Assembly: GCA_029262315.1 (NCBI GenBank)
Contig: JAJCZP010000044.1
Coordinates: 1-36,997 of the forward strand
Length of the DNA: 36,997 nt
DNA from: Deltaproteobacteria bacterium
GTDB taxonomy: Bacteria; Desulfobacterota; Binatia; UTPRO1
Reading direction: 5' to 3'
The notes beneath the pieces were generated by a model. That model was given only the letters and a program-made list of their open reading frames with translations, had not been told where the DNA came from and made no database searches. A program made the translations under genes and the position numbers. The stretch's first letter is position 1, and every line of letters starts with the position of its first letter. This document shows positions 20,651 through 34,200 of this stretch, piece by piece.

Positions 20651-21929
20651 GGGCCTCCCCCTCTCCGAGCGCGCGAATCGCCGCGGCGGTCGTAAGGCCG
20701 TCCACGTCGAACCCGATCGCAAGCGGGTGGTCCGCCTGGCGCTGCATGTCACGGACGGTCGCGCGTCCGGCCTCGATCTCGGCGTCCCCGATGAGCAACG
20801 CGAAACGCACTCCGAGTTTGTCCGCGCGCCGCATGGCACTCTTGACACTCCGACCGGCGGTTTCCAACTCGCACCGCGCGCCCGCTCCCCGCAACGCGCG
20901 CGCCAACTGGAGCGCCGACGCTGCGGCCGCCTCCGTCAGCGGAATCACGCACATCTCCGGCGTCGCATCCTCGCCCGTGGAGCCGGCAGACATCAGGAGT
21001 CGCTCCAGTCCAATCGCAAAGCCGACACCGCCTATCGGCGCGCCACCAAGCGCGGCCACCAAACCGTCGTACCGCCCACCGCCACCCACGGCGTTCTGCG
21101 CCCCGAGCCCAGGCGCGATGACCTCGAATGCGGTCCGCACGTAGTAGTCCAGCCCGCGCACCAACGTCGGATCGACGGTGAACTCGATCCCTGCGGCCGT
21201 CAGTAGCCGCTCAACGTCGTTGAAATGCGTCCGACACTCGTCGCACAGGTGCTCGCGCAAGCGTGGCGCGTCGACCATGAGCGCTCGGCACGACTCCTCC
21301 TTACAATCCAGAAGCCGCAGCGGATTGCGCTCGAGCCGGAGCTTGCAGGTCTCGCACAACTCCGCTTCATGCGCGCGCCCGAACGCCTCGAGTGCGGTCC
21401 GGTAGCCGGGGCGACACGTGGCATCGCCGAGCGAGTTCAGGAGCAGCTTGACATCGCGCAGCCCCGCCGCCGCCAGGCAATCCATCAGAAGCGCGACGAC
21501 CTCCGCGTCGGCCAGCGCGTCCTCACGTCCGAGCACCTCGACCCCGATCTGGTGAAACTGCCGCAAACGACCCTTCTGTGGTCGCTCGCGGCGGAACATG
21601 GGTCCGAGATAGTAGAGCTTCGCCACGCGGTCACGGCCGGCAAGTCCACCCTCGATCGCCGCGCGTACGACCGATGCCGTACATTCGGGCCGCAGGGTGA
21701 GCATCGTACCGTCCCGATCCTCGAAGGTGTACATCTCCTTCTCGACGATATCGGTCGCTTCACCGAGGGATCGGGCGAACAGCTCGGCACGCTCGGCGAT
21801 CGGGGTCCGAATCTCGACGTAGTTGTAGGAGTCCAGGACCGTGCACAGGTTGCGTTCGATCCTGTGGAACCGTTCGCTCTGCGGCGGCAGGACGTCGTGG
21901 AACCCTCTCACGCCGCTTAGCCTGCTCAT
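20640..21929 (-). CDS. hisS: Histidyl-tRNA synthetase
   Basis: Charges tRNA-His. A class II enzyme of 429 residues from ATG 21929. It begins with the typical RLSGVRGFHDVLPP. Motif 2 is FRRERPQKGRLRQFHQ (112-127), the histidine-specific motif is RGLDYY (258-263), and GGGGRYDGL follows. The cysteine-rich insertion (CETCKLRL, LLDCKEESC, LCDEC) is a common feature of the bacterial family. The C-terminal anticodon-binding domain is present. A TTG at 21950 would add seven residues (a poorer start). hisS overlaps aspS downstream by 11 bp and follows comEC by 41 bp. Confidence 0.96.
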   Translation of the reverse strand: MSRLSGVRGFHDVLPPQSERFHRIERNLCTVLDSYNYVEIRTPIAERAELFARSLGEATDIVEKEMYTFEDRDGTMLTLRPECTASVVRAAIEGGLAGRDRVAKLYYLGPMFRRERPQKGRLRQFHQIGVEVLGREDALADAEVVALLMDCLAAAGLRDVKLLLNSLGDATCRPGYRTALEAFGRAHEAELCETCKLRLERNPLRLLDCKEESCRALMVDAPRLREHLCDECRTHFNDVERLLTAAGIEFTVDPTLVRGLDYYVRTAFEVIAPGLGAQNAVGGGGRYDGLVAALGGAPIGGVGFAIGLERLLMSAGSTGEDATPEMCVIPLTEAAAASALQLARALRGAGARCELETAGRSVKSAMRRADKLGVRFALLIGDAEIEAGRATVRDMQRQADHPLAIGFDVDGLTTAAAIRALGEGEARGC

Positions 21930-21940
21930 GAAACCCCGCA

Positions 21941-21969
21941 CAGGTACCAAAGGGGTGGCGCGAATTCAA
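21941..21969 (-). promoter_or_regulatory. Weak possible promoter of hisS-aspS
   Basis: On the minus strand TTGAAT (21964-21969), 17 bp, TACCTG (21941-21946). The -35 is 4/6; the -10 is poor but shares TACCT with the icd candidate. The implied leader is only a few nucleotides. I list it because it fills the only gap before hisS. Confidence 0.22.
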
Positions 21970-21970
21970 A

Positions 21971-24370
21971 TCAGCGATACCACCCACGCGCCACAGCATG
22001 CAGGCCATCGGACTCGACACGCACGGCCCCGTCGCGATCCGTACGCCATACAAGGGCCCCACCGGCCCCAAGCCGAGCCAGGACAGCTGGGGCCGGAAAG
22101 CCGAAACGATTGCCGTACCCCGCCGAGACCACGGCAACCTGAGGAGACACCGCGCGAAGGAATTCGTCCGAACTGGAAGTCGCGCTGCCATGATGTGCGA
22201 CCTTCAGTACGGTACTGGCGAGCCCTCCCCGGGCGAGGAGCGCGGCCTCGCCGCGCGCTTCGATGTCCCCGGTAAACAACATGGAGACGGCGCCGTGCGT
22301 GAGTCGGAGCACCAGAGACGCATCGTTGGCGCCCAATCGCGGCCCCTGCGCCGCTGGATGCAAGGCTTCGACGTGCACGGCGCGGTACGCAAGCGGAACA
22401 TCACCGGCGCGAAGCCGCACCTGGCGCGCGCCGACGCGCATCAGCGCCTCTTCGAGCCGCCTGAACCCCGCGGCGGGCGATCGCGCTCCGGTCGACCAGA
22501 ACTCGCGCACCCGAAACTCCTCCGCGAGATATGCGAGCCCTTCGTAGTGATCGTGTTGCGGATGCGACAGTGCCATGACGTCGAGCCGCTGAATTTTCCG
22601 CGACCGGAGAAATGGCCCCACGACCCGCGCTCCCGGGTCGAACGGCCCCGGCAACCCCCCGCCGTCGACGACCATCACACGCCCATGCGGGAGCTCGATC
22701 ACCGCGGCGTCCCCCTGCCCGACCGAAAGAAACGTCACGCGCACGCGTGCGCTGTAGACGCGTTCGAGAACCCAGTACCCAACATCCCCGATCACGAGGA
22801 GGAGCACCGCTAGTACCAGGCCCGCGCGGAGCTGGCCCGCGCGAGGACTCGAAGACCACGCGCGCCCGCGCCCCAGGTAGCACGCCAGCACCGCATAGCA
22901 GAGCCCGAGCTCGAACATGGACAGCCGCGGCGTCGAGATCGCGGCCCACGGGAGCTGCGCCATCGCCCCTGCCCCGGAGAGTCCGAGCCGCGCCGCTGCC
23001 GCCGCGCACGCCAACAGGAGGTCGGCAAGCCCGCCCGCCACGGGAACGAACGGCAGGGCCAGCAGTCCGGGTACGAGTGTGCCGGGACCCAACAGGGGAA
23101 GCACCAGCACGTTCGCCAACGGTGCCACCAACGAGATCTCTTGAAAGTAGTGCGCCATCAGTGGTGCCGTTGCCAACCAGGCCGCCAGCGTGACCCGGAG
23201 CGGCTCGACTACTAGGAGACCGAGCCACTTCCCGACACGGCCCTTCCGGGGTCCGGGAGCCGCGCGACGCACGGCGAGCACGATCGCCAGGACCGATGCG
23301 AACGACAGGGCGAACGAGGGCTCGATCACACGGGCGGGCGCTGGCATCGCCACACAGCAGGCTACCGCGGCAAGCGCCCGTACCGCATCGCCGCGCCGAT
23401 CCATCCACAGCGCCGAGCAGCCGACGACGTACATCAGGAGCGCGCGCGTGGCCGGCACTTGCCCCCCCGCGATCGCGCAATACGCAAGCGCCAGGGGGAG
23501 TCCTCCCAGGACGGCAAGCTTTCGGACATCGCAGCGTCGCAGCAGCCAGATCCGACGCCGTACGATCCACGCCACGAGCAAGGCCCCCGCGCCCGCGGCG
23601 ATCGCCACATGCAGCCCGGAGACGGCCGCGACGTGCGCGAGTCCGGCGCGTGCCAGCTCGCGGCGCTGCGAGGGATCGAGCGCGTGACGCTCGCCCAACA
23701 GCACCGTCCGTAGATACGCATTGGCACCCGCATCGGGCGTGCGCAGGAGACGTCCGCGTAGCCGCTCGCGCACGCGGTGCTGCAATTCGCGGCCGGCGAG
23801 CCGCGCCGCATCGATCTCCTCGAGTGCCCGGTCGTCCCACGCAAAGGCGGTCACAAAGATCCCTTGGCGCTCGAGGGTTCCGACATGATCGTAGTCACTC
23901 GGGTTCCCGAAGTTGCGAGGCCGCTTCAACCGCGCGCGAACACGCACCAGGGCACCCGGCGGCCACGAGCGGGCGGGATGTGCGATGGTCACAGCGACGC
24001 GACCACTCACGGCGGCCCACGACGGCCCTCGGCGGACACGCGCCGCGTCGACGATCACCCGGCGACGTGCCCCCCGTACGCTGCTGGCAACGATGCGGCC
24101 CTCGACGACCGCTCGCGTGCCTGACGCCTGGTGAGCCACGTGGACTGGTGGCAACGGCAACGTCGTGAGCGCCAGGCTCACGGCCGCCAGGGCCGCCCCG
24201 GCGGCGAGCGCCGCCATTCGCCCCCGCACCGGCGAACGTCCGGCAAGCGCCAGCGCCAAGACGATACCCGCGCCGCCGGCCGCGGGCACCGCTTCGCCAA
24301 CGAGCCCCGCGGCGACCACTCCAGCCGCGAACGGCACCGTGACGTCAGCGGGACTGAGGTTGTCTTCCAT
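21971..24370 (-). CDS. comEC: ComEC/Rec2-family DNA-uptake channel protein
   Basis: Predicted inner-membrane channel that carries single-stranded DNA into the cytoplasm during natural transformation. It is 799 residues from ATG 24370. All three family parts are present: an N-terminal OB-like DUF4131 domain (about 55-190), the polytopic competence domain (about 210-510, with AAVSGLHVAIAAGAGALLV and GGQVPATRALLMY), and a C-terminal metallo-beta-lactamase-like domain (about 540-799). The latter keeps its metal motif HPQHDH (603-608) and the later GANDASLVLRL, FTGDIE and KVAHHGS blocks. It could act as a nuclease that degrades the non-transported strand. A GTG at 24385 would add five residues. 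No other competence gene (comEA, pilQ) is nearby, so competence itself is not shown. Confidence 0.95.
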   Translation of the reverse strand: MEDNLSPADVTVPFAAGVVAAGLVGEAVPAAGGAGIVLALALAGRSPVRGRMAALAAGAALAAVSLALTTLPLPPVHVAHQASGTRAVVEGRIVASSVRGARRRVIVDAARVRRGPSWAAVSGRVAVTIAHPARSWPPGALVRVRARLKRPRNFGNPSDYDHVGTLERQGIFVTAFAWDDRALEEIDAARLAGRELQHRVRERLRGRLLRTPDAGANAYLRTVLLGERHALDPSQRRELARAGLAHVAAVSGLHVAIAAGAGALLVAWIVRRRIWLLRRCDVRKLAVLGGLPLALAYCAIAGGQVPATRALLMYVVGCSALWMDRRGDAVRALAAVACCVAMPAPARVIEPSFALSFASVLAIVLAVRRAAPGPRKGRVGKWLGLLVVEPLRVTLAAWLATAPLMAHYFQEISLVAPLANVLVLPLLGPGTLVPGLLALPFVPVAGGLADLLLACAAAAARLGLSGAGAMAQLPWAAISTPRLSMFELGLCYAVLACYLGRGRAWSSSPRAGQLRAGLVLAVLLLVIGDVGYWVLERVYSARVRVTFLSVGQGDAAVIELPHGRVMVVDGGGLPGPFDPGARVVGPFLRSRKIQRLDVMALSHPQHDHYEGLAYLAEEFRVREFWSTGARSPAAGFRRLEEALMRVGARQVRLRAGDVPLAYRAVHVEALHPAAQGPRLGANDASLVLRLTHGAVSMLFTGDIEARGEAALLARGGLASTVLKVAHHGSATSSSDEFLRAVSPQVAVVSAGYGNRFGFPAPAVLARLGAGGALVWRTDRDGAVRVESDGLHAVARGWYR

Positions 24371-28927: not shown

Positions 28928-29242
28928 TCACTCGTCACGCTGCAAACGGCGGCGCTCGTTCCGCGGAAGATCCTGGTACTCCTGATAGTTGGAGCGGAGC
29001 CGCTCCTTCTCGTTGGGAGGTAATTTCTGCCAGCGATCGTAGTTGCGCTCGACCTTTTGGCGAGTCTCAGGAGGCATCTTCTGGAAGCGCTCGTAGTTCC
29101 GACGCGCCTCGCCTCGCTCCTTGGCAGACATGTCGTCCCACTGCTGCGCGCCCGCCACCCCAACGACAACGATCGCCGGAGCGACCGCGAGCAGCAACGC
29201 CAACAGCCATCGCCTCAGCCCCCCCGCAAGGGCTGTCCTCAT
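28928..29242 (-). CDS. Small secreted or membrane-tethered protein with three 18-residue repeats (DUF3106-like)
   Basis: A 104-residue protein. An N-terminal hydrophobic segment (about 11-30, WLLALLLAVAPAIVVVGVA) ends at AGAQQ, which fits a signal peptide. The rest is charged and made of three tandem 18-residue units starting at N49, N67 and N85, each of the form NY-x2-(F/W/Y)-Q-x-(M/L)-P-x2-(T/E)-(R/K): NYERFQKMPPETRQKVER, NYDRWQKLPPNEKERLRS, NYQEYQDLPRNERRRLQR. This matches the DUF3106 pattern. Each unit is likely a helix pair. The ATG overlaps the stop of the anti-sigma gene (ATGA), so it belongs to the sigma/anti-sigma operon and may be the periplasmic sensor or effector of that system. 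That role is inferred from position only. Confidence 0.85.
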   Translation of the reverse strand: MRTALAGGLRRWLLALLLAVAPAIVVVGVAGAQQWDDMSAKERGEARRNYERFQKMPPETRQKVERNYDRWQKLPPNEKERLRSNYQEYQDLPRNERRRLQRDE

Positions 29243-29925
29243 GCCCACGCCGCACGTTCCCGGTCGAGGCATGGCCCACGGCCGATCCGATCTTGGTCGC
29301 CATCAGCTCGCACTGCCTCGAAGTGTTCCAACGTCTGCAGGCGATGCACAACCGGCAGACGGAGATAGAGTTCGGGGCGCTCCAGAAGATCGGGCGGAAG
29401 ATCCTCGGGCATGAGTTCGTCGGCGCCCCGTGCGTCAGCGACCGCGACCCTGGCAGCGCGTTGTGCCGCCGCAATCGCGCGGGGCGGCGACACAGCCATG
29501 GGGGCAGACACGGCGCTCGGAGCGGCGACCTCGACACTCTCCGTGCGCGACGGCGATACCGTACCGTGATTCAGCACGGAGCTGAGCGCCAGCGCCACCG
29601 CCGCGGCCGCGGCGAAGGCAACCGCCCAGCCGGGCGTCCCTGGCAGGCGCCGCCCGGTCGTGCGAGCGGATCCGGTATCGATCACGGAAGTTGCGGCCAT
29701 CCGATCCTGCAAGCGCTCCGCCAGATCGACCGAGGGCTCGATACGCGGCAGGGCCGTAAGCAAGGCCCCAACCTGCTCGATGCTCTGGATCTCGCGCCGA
29801 CACGACAAACAGGTCGCTATGTGCGTGACGACGACCTCGCGCGATTCTCCTGCAAGCTCATCGTCGACGTACGCGACGAGGTGCTCGGAGACCGCTGCAC
29901 ACGCCTCTCGCTTCGACTCGCTCAT
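29239..29925 (-). CDS. Zinc-finger transmembrane anti-sigma factor
   Basis: A 228-residue protein. The N-terminal cytoplasmic domain has the ZAS signature H35-x3-C39-x2-C42 (VTHIATCLSC), preceded by EHLVAYVDDELAGESR, the usual first helix of RsrA/ChrR-type anti-sigma domains. One membrane helix follows (about 99-118, GWAVAFAAAAAVALALSSVL). The remaining 110 residues are predicted periplasmic, Ala/Pro-rich at first, with an acidic segment later (ADELMPEDLPPDLLERPELY). It should hold the adjacent ECF sigma factor inactive and release it on an envelope or redox signal. Its ATG overlaps the sigma stop (ATGA) and its stop overlaps the repeat-protein start, so all three are coupled. Confidence 0.93.
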   Translation of the reverse strand: MSESKREACAAVSEHLVAYVDDELAGESREVVVTHIATCLSCRREIQSIEQVGALLTALPRIEPSVDLAERLQDRMAATSVIDTGSARTTGRRLPGTPGWAVAFAAAAAVALALSSVLNHGTVSPSRTESVEVAAPSAVSAPMAVSPPRAIAAAQRAARVAVADARGADELMPEDLPPDLLERPELYLRLPVVHRLQTLEHFEAVRADGDQDRIGRGPCLDRERAAWA

Positions 29926-30563
29926 AAGAACTCCGCCAAGGCCTTTCGCATACTGGCCGTTGCGCGAAAGACCAGACTCTTCACCGCGCTCTCGCTACAC
30001 TCGAGCGTTTCCGCCACATCCCGATACGACATCCCTTCCGTCCGACTCAGCAGCAACGCCGTCCGCTGATGCTCGGGCAACGCCGCCAACGCCTCTTGCA
30101 TTCTAGCCTCGAGCTCGCGACCGGCCAAGGTGCGCTCGCCCTCGCGTGCCGTGGCATCGGGGAGCTGGATCTCGGCACGCTCGCCGTCGTCAGGCTGCTC
30201 GTCCAGCGATCGAGAGGGAAAGCGGTGCTCAGGCCGGCGTGCCTCGTTCAGGCAGGCATTGCGTGCGATGCGATACAACCAGGTCGTGAACCGTGCCTGC
30301 GGCTCGTAGCGGGGCCCGGCCCGATAGACCTGAAGAAAGACGTCCTGCGTGAGTTCCTCGGCTCGATCACGCCTCCCGACGAATTGATATGCGAAGTTCA
30401 CGATCGCTCGGCTGTGTTTCTCGAACAGCGCACGAAATGCTGTTTCGTCTCCCGCGCGGACGCGCAGCATGAGCTGCACGTCCGGATCGCTTGTGGGTGG
30501 CTCCTTTGCTCGTTCCAATGGTTTCAACGCATTCGCCCCGCCAGAGTTGCGGGCGGCTACCAT
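29922..30563 (-). CDS. ECF-family RNA polymerase sigma factor (RpoE-like)
   Basis: A group 4 sigma factor of 213 residues from ATG 30563. Region 2 is about 40-110, with FAYQFVGRRDRAEELTQDVF for core binding and -10 melting and FTTWLYRIARNACLNEARR. A linker of about 45 residues joins it to region 4 (about 155-208), whose HTH is GMSYRDVAETLECSESAVKS. Regions 1 and 3 are absent, as usual for ECF sigmas. The first 30 or so residues are non-conserved, so a start inside them is possible; the frame is also open back to 30635. No strong ribosome-binding site helps. It is divergent from the histidine kinase. The downstream anti-sigma and repeat-protein genes are coupled to it. Such sigmas often autoregulate, but I could not assign its promoter. 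Confidence 0.94.
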   Translation of the reverse strand: MVAARNSGGANALKPLERAKEPPTSDPDVQLMLRVRAGDETAFRALFEKHSRAIVNFAYQFVGRRDRAEELTQDVFLQVYRAGPRYEPQARFTTWLYRIARNACLNEARRPEHRFPSRSLDEQPDDGERAEIQLPDATAREGERTLAGRELEARMQEALAALPEHQRTALLLSRTEGMSYRDVAETLECSESAVKSLVFRATASMRKALAEFL

Positions 30564-30676
30564 ATTCGGCGGCCGGCCACCACGCCCCCTGCCCCTCGGC
30601 CCGCACCACTCGGCCCGGCCCAGCGGACCGGGCAACGCTCTCTAGCTACTGCTTTTCCAAGTTGGTATGAGGACTT

Positions 30677-32260
30677 ATGAGTCAAGGCGTCGACCCCGAC
30701 GAAGGTCTCGCCGAACATCTGACGCGCATCGAAGGCTACATGCGCGGCTACGCGTTGCTGCGATTCCCCCGCGAGCGGAGCCCGCTCCGGGATGAACTCG
30801 CGAGCACGCTCGAGGATACCCTCGGCGACGCCATCACGGCCTGGGTGACTCAATTCGCCGAAGCATTCGCAATTCCCGCGCACCAGCACCCCTCCCTGAC
30901 CCAAGACGTCGGCGCCGCGCTCAAGCGCTGGATCGCCCATATCCGCGACCCCCAGAACTACGACACCTACGACGTCCTTCGCCAGCACGCCAGTCGCGGT
31001 TTCATCTCGAAATTCCCGGCGTCACGATTCATCTCGGGACAGATGAAAGTCTTCCAGCTCATGTCGAGCCACGTGCGCGCTCGCTACGCCCATGACCGCG
31101 ACCGCCGCTCGCAGCTTCTGTCGCTCCTGGCTCAGGAATTCGAGGAGCGCCTCCTGCACATCACGGATTTCTTCGTCGAAGCACGGGAGGAGCAACTTCG
31201 CGAGCAGGAGGCCACCTACCGACGCTCGATCGACAACGCGCCCGCGGCCATCCTCCGGATCGACTGGTACGAGGGGACGGTGCTGTCGGCAAACGTCGTC
31301 GCGGAGCAGCAACTCGGCTACGCCCCGGGCCACCTGCTCACCATGAAAGCATGGGACCTCCATCCCCCCCACGAGCGAGCCGCCGCCATGCGATTGCTCG
31401 ACGAGACACGCACCAAGGGAAACGCCAGCCGCGACGACCTCCATCACCAAACGCGCGATGGCCGGTCGGTGCCGCTCTTCATCAACGCTGGCGCGATCGA
31501 ATACGGCGATCAACGCCTCATCCAGCAGATCTGCGTCGACATCTCGGACCGCAAACGCCTCGAGGATCAGCTGATCCAATCGGAGAAAATGGCCGCGATC
31601 GGCCAGCTCGCGGCCGGCATCGCCCACGAGATCCGCAATCCGCTCGCGATCATCACCAACGCGCTCTACGATCTTTCCGAGATCGTCGATACCACCAACG
31701 GCGAGGTCAAAGAGGATCTACGGATCGCCACCGAGGAGATGGACCGCGTCCAGGCGATCATCAACAGCCTGCTCGAGTTCTCCCGCGAGTCCCGGTCCGA
31801 ACGTGAGCTCGTCGACGTCAACGACCTGGTACGCAAAACGTTGCAGCTGATGCAGAAATACCTGCAGAACAACGACGTGCATGTCGTGACCGACCTTCCG
31901 CAACTCGACCCCTGCCAGGCCAACGAGAACGCACTCCGGCAGATCTTTCTCAACCTGATCACCAACGCCGTGCAGGCCATGCCGCACGGCGGCGAGCTCC
32001 GTGTCCGCACCTCCCGTGCCACGGCCGACCGCATGCGGCTCGAGTTCAGCGACACCGGCATCGGCATTCCTGATCATCAGCTGAAAGACATCTTCAATCC
32101 ATTCTTCACGACCAAGTCGTCCGGGCAAGGGACCGGTCTCGGCCTCTCGGTGGTTCACTCGGTCGTCCGCCGCTATCACGGCGACATCCGGGTCCACAGC
32201 ACACCGAACGTCGGCACGACCTTCACGATCGACCTGCCGTGCGGGTGCGACGACCCGTGA
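30677..32260 (+). CDS. Soluble PAS-domain sensor histidine kinase
   Basis: A 527-residue kinase with no membrane segment, so it senses a cytoplasmic signal. The N-terminal all-helical domain (about 15-170) resembles the RsbR-N/sensor-globin-like class but I cannot name it firmly. A short coiled stretch (EEQLREQEATYRR) leads to a PAS domain (about 180-295; NAPAAILRID to QICVDISDRKR). The HisKA dimer has the phospho-acceptor H317 in AAGIAHEIRNPLAI. The ATPase domain has N430 (NLITNAVQAM), DTGIGI (459-464), F-box NPFFTTK and GTGLGL (485-490), all intact. The layout is NtrB/AtoS-like. GAGG lies 4 nt before the ATG. It overlaps the sigma-54 activator by 4 bp (GTGA) and surely phosphorylates it. 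Confidence 0.95.
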   Translation: MSQGVDPDEGLAEHLTRIEGYMRGYALLRFPRERSPLRDELASTLEDTLGDAITAWVTQFAEAFAIPAHQHPSLTQDVGAALKRWIAHIRDPQNYDTYDVLRQHASRGFISKFPASRFISGQMKVFQLMSSHVRARYAHDRDRRSQLLSLLAQEFEERLLHITDFFVEAREEQLREQEATYRRSIDNAPAAILRIDWYEGTVLSANVVAEQQLGYAPGHLLTMKAWDLHPPHERAAAMRLLDETRTKGNASRDDLHHQTRDGRSVPLFINAGAIEYGDQRLIQQICVDISDRKRLEDQLIQSEKMAAIGQLAAGIAHEIRNPLAIITNALYDLSEIVDTTNGEVKEDLRIATEEMDRVQAIINSLLEFSRESRSERELVDVNDLVRKTLQLMQKYLQNNDVHVVTDLPQLDPCQANENALRQIFLNLITNAVQAMPHGGELRVRTSRATADRMRLEFSDTGIGIPDHQLKDIFNPFFTTKSSGQGTGLGLSVVHSVVRRYHGDIRVHSTPNVGTTFTIDLPCGCDDP

Positions 32261-33651
32261 GCTCTCCCGTGCAGCACGCACGCATCCTGCTCGTCGAGGA
32301 TGAGATCAACATGGCGCGGACGCTCGCCAAAATCCTCGAGCGCAAGGGCTATCGCGTCGCGACGGCCAGCAACGGAGAAGAGGCCGTCGCACACCTGAAA
32401 ACGGAACGCCCCGACGTCATCGTCACCGACCTCAACATGCCCGTCATGGACGGCATGGCGCTCCTCCGACACCTGCGCGGCCCGGACGATTCGGACGACG
32501 GCACGCGCCGCCTCCTCACCCCACCAACAGTCGTACTGACCGGCCACGGCAGCACGCACGCCGCCGTCGAGGCCATGAAGATGGGTGCGTACGACTATCT
32601 CGTCAAGCCGTGCAACCCCGATGAGCTCCTGATGACCCTCGACCAAATCCTACGCGTCAGTCAGCTCGAACGGGAGAACGAGCGCCTGCGCGCCGAGGTT
32701 GCCCGGCACCAGGGCTTCGGCGAGATCATCGGCCACAGCGCCGCGATGCGCGAGGTCTACACGATGATCGCGGCCGTCGCTGGCAACGACTCGTCCATCC
32801 TCATCACCGGCGAGAGCGGCACGGGCAAAGAACTCGTGGCCCGGACCATTCACGACCGCAGCGCCCGCGCCGAGCAGCCCTTCGTCGCCATGAACTGCGG
32901 TGCCGTCTCCGATACCTTGCTCGACAGTCAACTCTTCGGTCACAAACGAGGCGCGTTCACAGGTGCGATCGCCGAGCACGACGGCGTCTTCCAAGCCGCC
33001 AACGGCGGCTCCCTTTTCCTCGACGAGATCGCCGAGATCCCGCTCGCGCTGCAACCGAAATTCCTGCGCGCGATTCAGGAGCGCGAGGTCGTGCCCCTCG
33101 GCACGCATAGGCCCGTCAGCGTCGACATCCGATTGATCGCCGTGACGAACCGAGACCTCGAACAGGAAGTCAGCGCCGGACGCTTCCGATCGGATCTCTT
33201 CTACCGCCTCAATGTCGTGCACCTCGAACTCCCGCCACTCCGGGAGCGCCGGGAAGACGTTCCCGCGCTGGCCCAGCACTATGTCGCGCGCTACGCCGAC
33301 GCCTTCAACGTCGAGCCCAAAATCATCGATCCGGAGGCCCTCGACCGACTGACCGGCTACGACTGGCCCGGGAACGTCCGCGAACTCCAAAACGTCATCG
33401 AGCGATGCTTCGCCCTGGCACCGGCCGCCCACATCGATCTGGCAAGCCTGCCGGCGAGTGTCCGGTCCGGCCCCCGTCCCACGAGCGGGATGGATTTCGG
33501 GGAGGAAGTGCCGTCGCTCGCCGCCATGGAGCGGGAGTTGATCGTGGCCGCCCTGCGGAAAAGCGCCGGCAACAAGAACCAGGCGGCACGCGCGCTGGGC
33601 ATCGATCGACAGCGCCTCTACCGGAAACTCGAAAAGTACGATCTCGCCTAG
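32257..33651 (+). CDS. Sigma-54-dependent response regulator (NtrC family)
   Basis: A 464-residue bacterial enhancer-binding protein. The receiver (about 8-125) has the acidic pair E14/D15, phospho-acceptor D58 (VIVTDLNMPVMDG), T95 and K117. It carries an insertion of about 14 residues before the fourth strand (GPDDSDDGTRRLL), which is unusual. The AAA+ domain shows Walker A GESGTGKE (185-192), the sigma-54 contact loop GAFTGA (232-237), Walker B GGSLFLDE (250-257) and GRFRSDLFYRLNV. A Fis-type HTH closes it (NKNQAARALGIDRQRLYRKL). The intact GAFTGA means it should activate sigma-54 promoters. I start it at GTG 32257, overlapping the kinase stop. The best candidate target is the promoter just downstream at 33795. 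Confidence 0.96.
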   Translation: MSSPVQHARILLVEDEINMARTLAKILERKGYRVATASNGEEAVAHLKTERPDVIVTDLNMPVMDGMALLRHLRGPDDSDDGTRRLLTPPTVVLTGHGSTHAAVEAMKMGAYDYLVKPCNPDELLMTLDQILRVSQLERENERLRAEVARHQGFGEIIGHSAAMREVYTMIAAVAGNDSSILITGESGTGKELVARTIHDRSARAEQPFVAMNCGAVSDTLLDSQLFGHKRGAFTGAIAEHDGVFQAANGGSLFLDEIAEIPLALQPKFLRAIQEREVVPLGTHRPVSVDIRLIAVTNRDLEQEVSAGRFRSDLFYRLNVVHLELPPLRERREDVPALAQHYVARYADAFNVEPKIIDPEALDRLTGYDWPGNVRELQNVIERCFALAPAAHIDLASLPASVRSGPRPTSGMDFGEEVPSLAAMERELIVAALRKSAGNKNQAARALGIDRQRLYRKLEKYDLA

Positions 33652-33673: not shown

Positions 33674-33719
33674 CGTCCGGCCTTCCGCGGACGACGACCC
33701 AGGTGTCGCGCTTTGCGAC
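33674..33719. promoter_or_regulatory. Two inverted repeats, candidate enhancer sites
   Basis: CGTCCG-N8-CGGACG (33674-33693) and GTCGC-N5-GCGAC (33705-33719) are both perfect dyads in the 177-bp gap. Their centres lie about 137 and 109 bp upstream of the start predicted for the sigma-54 promoter, the usual place for activator binding. The first could instead be a terminator stem for the regulator gene, but no T-run follows. Confidence 0.4.
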
Positions 33720-33794: not shown

Positions 33795-33810
33795 TGGCAC
33801 GAATCTCGCT
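33795..33810 (+). promoter_or_regulatory. Candidate sigma-54 promoter
   Basis: TGGCACG-AATC-TCGCT matches the -24/-12 consensus TGGCACG-N4-TTGCW at 11 of 12 positions and has the invariant GG-N10-GC. Transcription would start about 12 nt after the GC, near 33821, just before ATG 33829. It directly follows the gene of a sigma-54 activator. Confidence 0.65.
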
Positions 33811-33828: not shown

Positions 33829-34200
33829 ATGGACACCTCCGCCCATATTCTGGTCGTTGCCAGCAATGAGAACTTCCGGACGACCCTGCGTCGAATTCTC
33901 TGCCGCTGTGGATACCAGACCCATACGGTCGCCTCGGGCGAGGATGCCGTCCAGGCGCTAGGGGAGCGCCCGTACGATCTCGTCCTCGCGGAGATGGCCC
34001 TACCCGGCATCTGCGGCCTGACCGTCCTCTGCAAGAGTCGGCAAGAAGGCCGGGAGGTTCCGTTCGTGCTCCTGACCGAGTGTCAGACCGAGCGAGCGCG
34101 CTGGGTCATGAGCGGGATGGAGGCCGTGCGCTGCCTCTCGCTGCCGCTGAACGTCGATCGTTTGAAGCACGTCGTTGCCGAGTCCATCACGGCCGCTTGA
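33829..34200 (+). CDS. Degenerate (pseudo-)receiver domain protein
   Basis: A 123-residue stand-alone domain with the fold signature of response-regulator receivers: first strand HILVVASN, helix FRTTLRRILCRCGY, strand YDLVLAEMALPGICG, strand VPFVLLTE. Key residues have changed. The phospho-acceptor Asp is Glu (E55 in VLAEMALPG), which often mimics phosphorylation. The acidic pair after strand 1 is S12/N13. The conserved Lys before Pro near the C-terminus is Leu (LSLPLN). The Thr of strand 4 is kept (T in LLTE). It therefore is unlikely to accept phosphate and may be locked in an active-like state or bind a partner. I chose ATG 33829 because it lies just after the predicted sigma-54 start point; an ATG at 33754 lies upstream of that promoter. 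No output domain is attached. Confidence 0.82.
   Translation: MDTSAHILVVASNENFRTTLRRILCRCGYQTHTVASGEDAVQALGERPYDLVLAEMALPGICGLTVLCKSRQEGREVPFVLLTECQTERARWVMSGMEAVRCLSLPLNVDRLKHVVAESITAA

Follow-up and report, generated by a model that had tools for sequence, protein, structure and literature searches.

What does a lone receiver domain do behind a histidine kinase and an NtrC-type regulator when it lacks almost all of the residues used for phosphorylation? This question is raised by a small gene, here called REC, in the window, by which we mean the whole stretch of 36,997 nucleotides that was analysed (contig JAJCZP010000044.1 of a Deltaproteobacteria bacterium, assembly GCA_029262315.1). The REC ORF starts with ATG and runs without an internal stop, and its product scores 51.7 bits in the Pfam family Response_reg (PF00072), for which the cut-off is 30.2. 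The features of the locus are collected in Table 1.

Table 1. Features of the REC locus (positions are those of the window)
Feature	Position	Strand	Basis
Anti-sigma factor with zf-HC2 domain, neighbour	29239..29925	-	
Divergent ECF sigma factor; beside most, not all, compared loci	29922..30635	-	
Histidine kinase (PAS, HisKA, HATPase_c)	30677..32260	+	Pfam
NtrC-type regulator (receiver, Sigma54_activat, Fis-type HTH)	32239..33651	+	Pfam
Weak candidate for an activator-binding site, inverted repeat TGTCGCGCTTTGCGAC	33704..33719	+	
Sigma-54-like -24/-12 site TGGCACGAATCTCGCT, 11/12 consensus positions, ATG 20 nt past the -12 C	33795..33810	+	
Stand-alone degenerate receiver (REC), 123 aa	33829..34200	+	ORF, Pfam, alignment, AlphaFold2
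REC residues 15-29, region of helix alpha-1, where REC resembles the cognate NtrC receiver	33871..33915	+	

The kinase-NtrC pair is preceded by the ECF sigma/zf-HC2 anti-sigma pair. Downstream of REC are a methyltransferase gene on the opposite strand and a gene that, from its sequence, we take to be UvrA-like. L021, L023, L024 and L025 have two UvrA-like stretches in a row next to REC, the second at approximately 40% identity, and this may be a doubled UvrA, in tandem or fused. In the kinase, the N-terminal 185 aa (30677-31231) match no Pfam family at E-values up to 1 and may represent an undescribed sensor region; of 148 genomes of the class, 79 have a match to the kinase's first 293 residues.

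Alignment of the window REC with its relatives and with normal receivers places Glu55 at the phospho-Asp position, Ala11 and Ser12 at the two metal-binding acidic positions, Leu105 at the position of the conserved Lys, Thr83 at the Thr position and C102 at the K-3 switch position. Four of the five receiver phosphorylation residues are thus gone and the Thr is retained, so that REC cannot be counted as a canonical single-domain response regulator of the CheY/Spo0F type, which has the acidic pair, Asp, Thr and Lys together. A first-pass annotation made from the sequence alone had read Glu55 in place of the phospho-acceptor and Leu in place of the Lys, and the alignment agrees; it had also recognised the loss of the acidic pair, but the residues that it named (S12/N13) are one residue off. 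Lacking the metal pair and the Lys, and with Glu for Asp, REC should be unable to accept a phosphoryl group.

Other receivers of the genome and of such loci differ from REC in this. Of the 47 receivers found in the window's genome, we compared 25 with REC (30 were taken, of which NtrC itself, L201, L204, L223 and L226 were left out). Asp55 and Lys105 are present in all 25, the first acidic position is acidic in 24 (Ala in one), the second is Asp in 25, and the Thr83 position holds Thr in 23 and Ser in two. Similarly, the NtrC receivers of such loci have the acidic pair, Asp, Thr and Lys intact in 24 of 24 cases. The fold of REC is retained, as the annotation had also proposed: an AlphaFold2 model of the window protein, made with four relatives, shows a complete (beta-alpha)5 receiver fold (mean pLDDT 83, weakest around alpha-4), and Foldseek gave TMq values of 0.80-0.89 between the REC model and the 50 solved receiver chains listed.

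There are 15 RECs, all within one bacterial class (probably Binatota) and each behind the same histidine kinase-NtrC pair. They form a single clade (support 100/99) on a long branch, in which L102 is itself a long row. A search of 58 genomes found REC at 60-62% identity in all five other members of the family and at 49% in one further family (G030); more distant RECs in the same search, recognised later, have 30-35% identity. A scan of genome contigs returned five loci, namely four relatives (on contigs as long as those of G001, G003, G004 and G005) and one 30% match in an Akkermansia record. Among 395 genomes from the phylum, two other matches were found at an E-value of 1e-19 or better; each falls within a long open reading frame, of 473 and 499 aa respectively, and we left them out of the set of relatives. 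Further matches in f2, f5 and other families are, taken as a group and not singly, mostly in long open frames.

We read 52 HK-NtrC loci including the window, of which 41 have a close kinase and 11 a remote one (L126-L136, family f9, which has 27 further kinase matches outside the 52 loci). REC lies directly behind NtrC in 15 of the 41 close-kinase loci: in 6/6 of family f1, 2/2 of f13 and 6/9 of f6, and as one divergent copy (L102) in f7. A profile search of ORFs of at least 60 aa found no REC at the other 26 (the absence being provisional at L121, where no more than some 230 bases lie beyond NtrC), and none was found at the 11 remote loci. Because 26 of the 41 loci have none, the kinase-NtrC pair can work without REC. 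At L102, the NtrC match ends at residue 450 of 470 and the frame stays open far beyond, which may reflect a frame shift or an assembly error.

The acidic pair and the Lys are missing in all 15 RECs. The phospho-site is Glu in nine (E-type, L102 counted) and Asp in six (D-type); the E-type proteins are therefore aspartate-less receivers (ALRs), and the D-type proteins retain the Asp. The loss of the acidic pair noted in the annotation is thus fixed among the relatives and the Glu is not. No relative combines a normal Asp with an acidic pair, and frame-breaking mutations were found in none.

A sigma-54-like promoter lies upstream of REC. When the best matches to the sigma-54 -24/-12 consensus between NtrC and REC were scored at 14 loci, they reached 9-11 with a sum of 139, against a mean of 109 for shuffled sequences and with 0/500 shuffles reaching the observed sum; five of the 14 score only 9 and are individually not significant (shuffle p 0.09-0.14). 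One rule was then applied to all loci (230 nt after NtrC, score of at least 9, GG and GC cores). It finds a site at 14/15 loci with REC versus 3/26 without, and at a score of at least 10 these become 10/15 versus 1/26. The GC core is missing at L119. At 12 of the 14 loci, a start codon (ATG in ten, GTG in two) is placed 15-20 nt past the -12 C, so that, at the usual distance from -12 to the transcription start, the REC mRNA would be almost leaderless. The window's genome has one match to rpoN. Since a sigma-54-like site stands upstream of REC and NtrC belongs to the sigma-54 activators, REC is probably a target of the adjacent NtrC, a control that we infer from position.

The second clue comes from helix alpha-1, the main kinase-recognition (docking) helix of receivers. 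Region by region, each REC was compared with its own NtrC receiver and with the 25 receivers from elsewhere in the window's genome. At 8/8 E-type loci, the cognate NtrC is closer to REC in the alpha-1 region than any of the 25; at the six D-type loci, 0-3 of the 25 equal or surpass it. With NtrC as the reference instead, 0-2 of the 25 equal or surpass REC at 13 of the 15 loci, and 5 and 8 do so at the remaining two. Alpha-1 is the only region with a consistent likeness to the cognate NtrC; beta2-alpha2 shows a slight closeness of this sort in the E-type (0-13 of 25).

The title of PDB entry 4jav names four residues of RR468 that were changed in a rewired HK853-RR468 interface. At the four alpha-1 positions that we match, by residue numbering, to those of RR468, E-type RECs have two or three residues in common with NtrC in 9/9 cases, and 0/25 of the other receivers have as many. 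D-type RECs have 0-2 in common, and at five of the six D-type loci this is no better than for other receivers (8-25 of 25 as good). Two changes are common to both partners, Gln16 in L031 and His29 in L102, and these pairs are suggestive. A tree that joins REC and the NtrC receivers in one clade is not rejected (p 0.70) and was the better tree found, so the likeness in alpha-1 may be partly ancestry.

Gene order, loss of catalytic residues, purifying selection (see below), a promoter-like sequence and an NtrC resemblance restricted to alpha-1 form the basis of the reading that we prefer, to which we give an even chance: REC would serve the kinase-NtrC pair as a dedicated third component under sigma-54 control, a non-phosphorylatable feedback decoy that damps the kinase. 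The kinase would produce NtrC-P, and NtrC-P would activate RNA polymerase-sigma-54 at the sigma-54-like site, so that REC is made from an almost leaderless mRNA. Having kept features of the docking helix alpha-1 of NtrC, REC would bind the transmitter domain of the kinase in the stead of NtrC, and bound REC would damp autophosphorylation or phosphotransfer, giving negative feedback by a decoy. Use of the promoter, activation by this NtrC, binding to the kinase and the sign of the effect are all inferred here. Among the observations that speak against this reading are the weakness of the D-type at the four alpha-1 positions, the five low-scoring promoter sites, the possible shared ancestry in alpha-1, the searches across genomes that found no wider regulon and the 26 loci without REC.

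The same promoter evidence would also fit a system in which output depends on expression, with a raised level of an always-active pseudo-receiver binding some other protein and no feedback on the kinase. This model is spelled out for CmrRST in the excerpted text of PMC12632262, and Cys62, found in 14 of the 15 relatives, could serve another partner of this kind. We regard it as unlikely, however, because it leaves unexplained why the likeness to the cognate NtrC is consistent in alpha-1 and nowhere else.

REC also has a fixed place behind NtrC, and it might pair with the NtrC receiver, tuning its assembly or phosphorylation up or down and leaving the kinase untouched. Heterodimers of a pseudo-receiver with a receiver are known or proposed (BldM/WhiI and CmrT, in the same excerpt of PMC12632262). 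The beta4-alpha4-beta5 face is the usual pairing face of receivers. It is here that REC differs most from both NtrC and other receivers, and over beta4 to beta5 the other receivers are closer to NtrC than REC is; pairing with NtrC thus appears rather improbable.

That Glu55 mimics phospho-Asp and locks REC as an active receiver, which would make it constitutive, one of the two readings in the first-pass annotation, is very unlikely. Glu is fixed in nine of the 15 relatives, and Asp-to-Glu changes can activate receivers such as NtrC, often only with further changes (PMC4395418, in the portion available); the title of PDB entry 2jb9 likewise calls a D10A/D53E double mutant of PhoB constitutively active. 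However, the six RECs that retain Asp have the same other losses. Moreover, the Thr position is Thr in only two of the 15 (the window and one relative, so that its retention, noted for the window, is not a family trait) and Ser in two more, the Lys is gone, and the K-3 position, usually a switch Tyr or Phe, is Cys in 12. Glu is therefore not the defining change of the family; judged from the alignment, the common trait is the loss of metal binding and of the Lys, and Glu is an addition in one part.

Nei-Gojobori counts gave dN/dS ratios of 0.07-0.14 for REC in seven of nine pairs, although dS is near saturation in one of the seven (L026/L099), and the remaining two pairs have 0.33 and 0.49. 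For the NtrC receivers, these nine pairs gave 0.09-0.34. From these ratios, REC is under purifying selection and not decaying, and the annotation's preference for a protein-binding receiver over decay is supported by this, by the losses shared by 15/15 RECs and by the retained fold. That REC is a relic under no selection and heading for loss is hardly credible: the 26 of 41 loci without it do imply gain or loss more than once, and two of the nine pairs have the higher ratios, but the other seven resemble the NtrC receivers, the REC matches are free of stops and the promoter-like site is conserved.

If REC is a feedback decoy, how does it compare with known systems? Pseudo-receivers or ALRs such as FrzS, ChxR and RitR have a receiver fold without the phosphorylation residues, and Glu is the most frequent substitution for the Asp (26%). 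They differ from REC in that the first acidic residue is mostly kept (65%) and the Lys position is mostly basic (70%), both of which are lost in 15/15 RECs (values from the excerpted part of PMC4395418). CmrT of the Clostridioides difficile CmrRST system is an atypical receiver protein encoded together with a normal kinase and regulator, on which it is thought to depend for expression, but it is an OmpR-family DNA-binding response regulator and REC is a lone receiver (PMC12632262, in part).

A close parallel in description is Osp of Rhodobacter sphaeroides, the product of a CtrA-activated gene that inhibits the kinase CckA by binding to its transmitter domain (PMC9430884, as far as the excerpt goes). 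Like the D-type RECs, Osp is a single receiver domain that has kept the Asp and lost the acidic pair and the Lys (PMC9430884). Its gene is activated by the regulator of its own system, whereas for REC there is only a conserved sigma-54-like site behind the gene of a sigma-54 activator. Osp further differs in having a CtrA-type regulator and site instead of NtrC and sigma-54, in a gene that lies apart from that of its kinase and in belonging to a hybrid-kinase phosphorelay; the comparison is one of descriptions.

On pSymA, fixJ is followed by a receiver-like ORF that has Ala-Ala in place of the acidic pair, and then by a Crp/Fnr-like gene. From its position, we take this ORF to be FixT. In the tree it stands apart from the RECs, on a branch that is very long and weakly placed, and this one row gave no sign of orthology. 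FixT also differs in its neighbours, which are FixL and FixJ with no NtrC or sigma-54, as against the HisKA kinase and NtrC-type regulator that REC adjoins. In Sinorhizobium meliloti and Caulobacter crescentus, FixT is a receiver-only negative-feedback inhibitor of FixL autophosphorylation and not a phosphoryl sink (PMC7078487, from the part available). The four-Cys motif of the Caulobacter protein (C53, C56, C59 and C64) has no counterpart in REC.

A separate idea, that REC is an Fe-S receiver like Caulobacter FixT, was rejected. Eight E-type relatives all have Cys27, Cys62 and Cys102, but the family as a whole does not: the six D-type relatives have Cys62 in six, Cys102 in four and Cys27 in one, and L102 lacks all three. 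Residue 62 (34012-34014) is Cys, for the usual Asp ahead of a conserved Gly, in 14 of the 15 relatives, and is a possible redox or binding site.

Competition of a pseudo-receiver at its kinase has already been printed as a hypothesis (PMC12632262, excerpt). No NtrC/sigma-54 decoy receiver was found in the openly available literature searched, and one may still be in print. What is new here is the NtrC/sigma-54 setting, together with the constant position after kinase and regulator and a likeness confined to the docking helix of the partner. Somewhat short of an even chance, in our estimate, is the broader claim that a sigma-54 system with its own decoy exists in part of an uncultured class, where feedback on the kinase through receiver mimicry would take an NtrC-type form. 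If it is true, the inhibition of kinases by receiver-like proteins seen in alphaproteobacteria (FixT and Osp) extends to the sigma-54 systems of a distant lineage. A 2025 review calls the on/off switching of bacterial pseudo-receivers a mystery (PMC12632262, in the text available), and the REC family is a case open to experiment, with a kinase and a regulator that are the likely partners by position, a defined candidate docking helix, and natural loci both with and without REC.

As for the activator-binding site, half-sites related to TGTCGCGCTTTGCGAC are present upstream in several loci and the exact octamer in 4/14. A shuffle test of the half-sites gave 91 versus 75.7, which is circular as the pattern was written from these loci. 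A pattern of half-site plus promoter occurs at 99 places in six genomes versus 168 for the control (24 versus 39 in the window's genome, G000), and two of these places are REC loci (G002 and G004). A tighter pattern occurs at seven places in four of 14 genomes versus 10 for the control: those in G035 and G049 are REC promoters, G001 has one, and G000 has four versus none for the control, one of them ahead of another receiver gene. We claim no wider NtrC regulon, as these cross-genome searches are not above control. With up to two mismatches, the inverted repeat alone occurs at 155 places in G000 versus 61 for the control, partly as a repeat family, and the window's copy is the only one free of mismatches to this pattern, itself derived from these loci. 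On contigs C56, C155 and C297 of the same genome, TGCCRCGGTTCGCGAC or close variants recur approximately 70-85 bases apart as a tandem repeat family.

A further NtrC-type gene is present elsewhere in the window's genome (L238, contig C48, approximately 21072-23784, minus strand) and is followed by a TTTGCGACA site. At the same locus, a sigma-54-like site, TGGCATGGAACATGCT (10/12), is followed by a receiver-kinase frame that starts 16 nt past the -12 C, a layout like that of REC but with a normal receiver.
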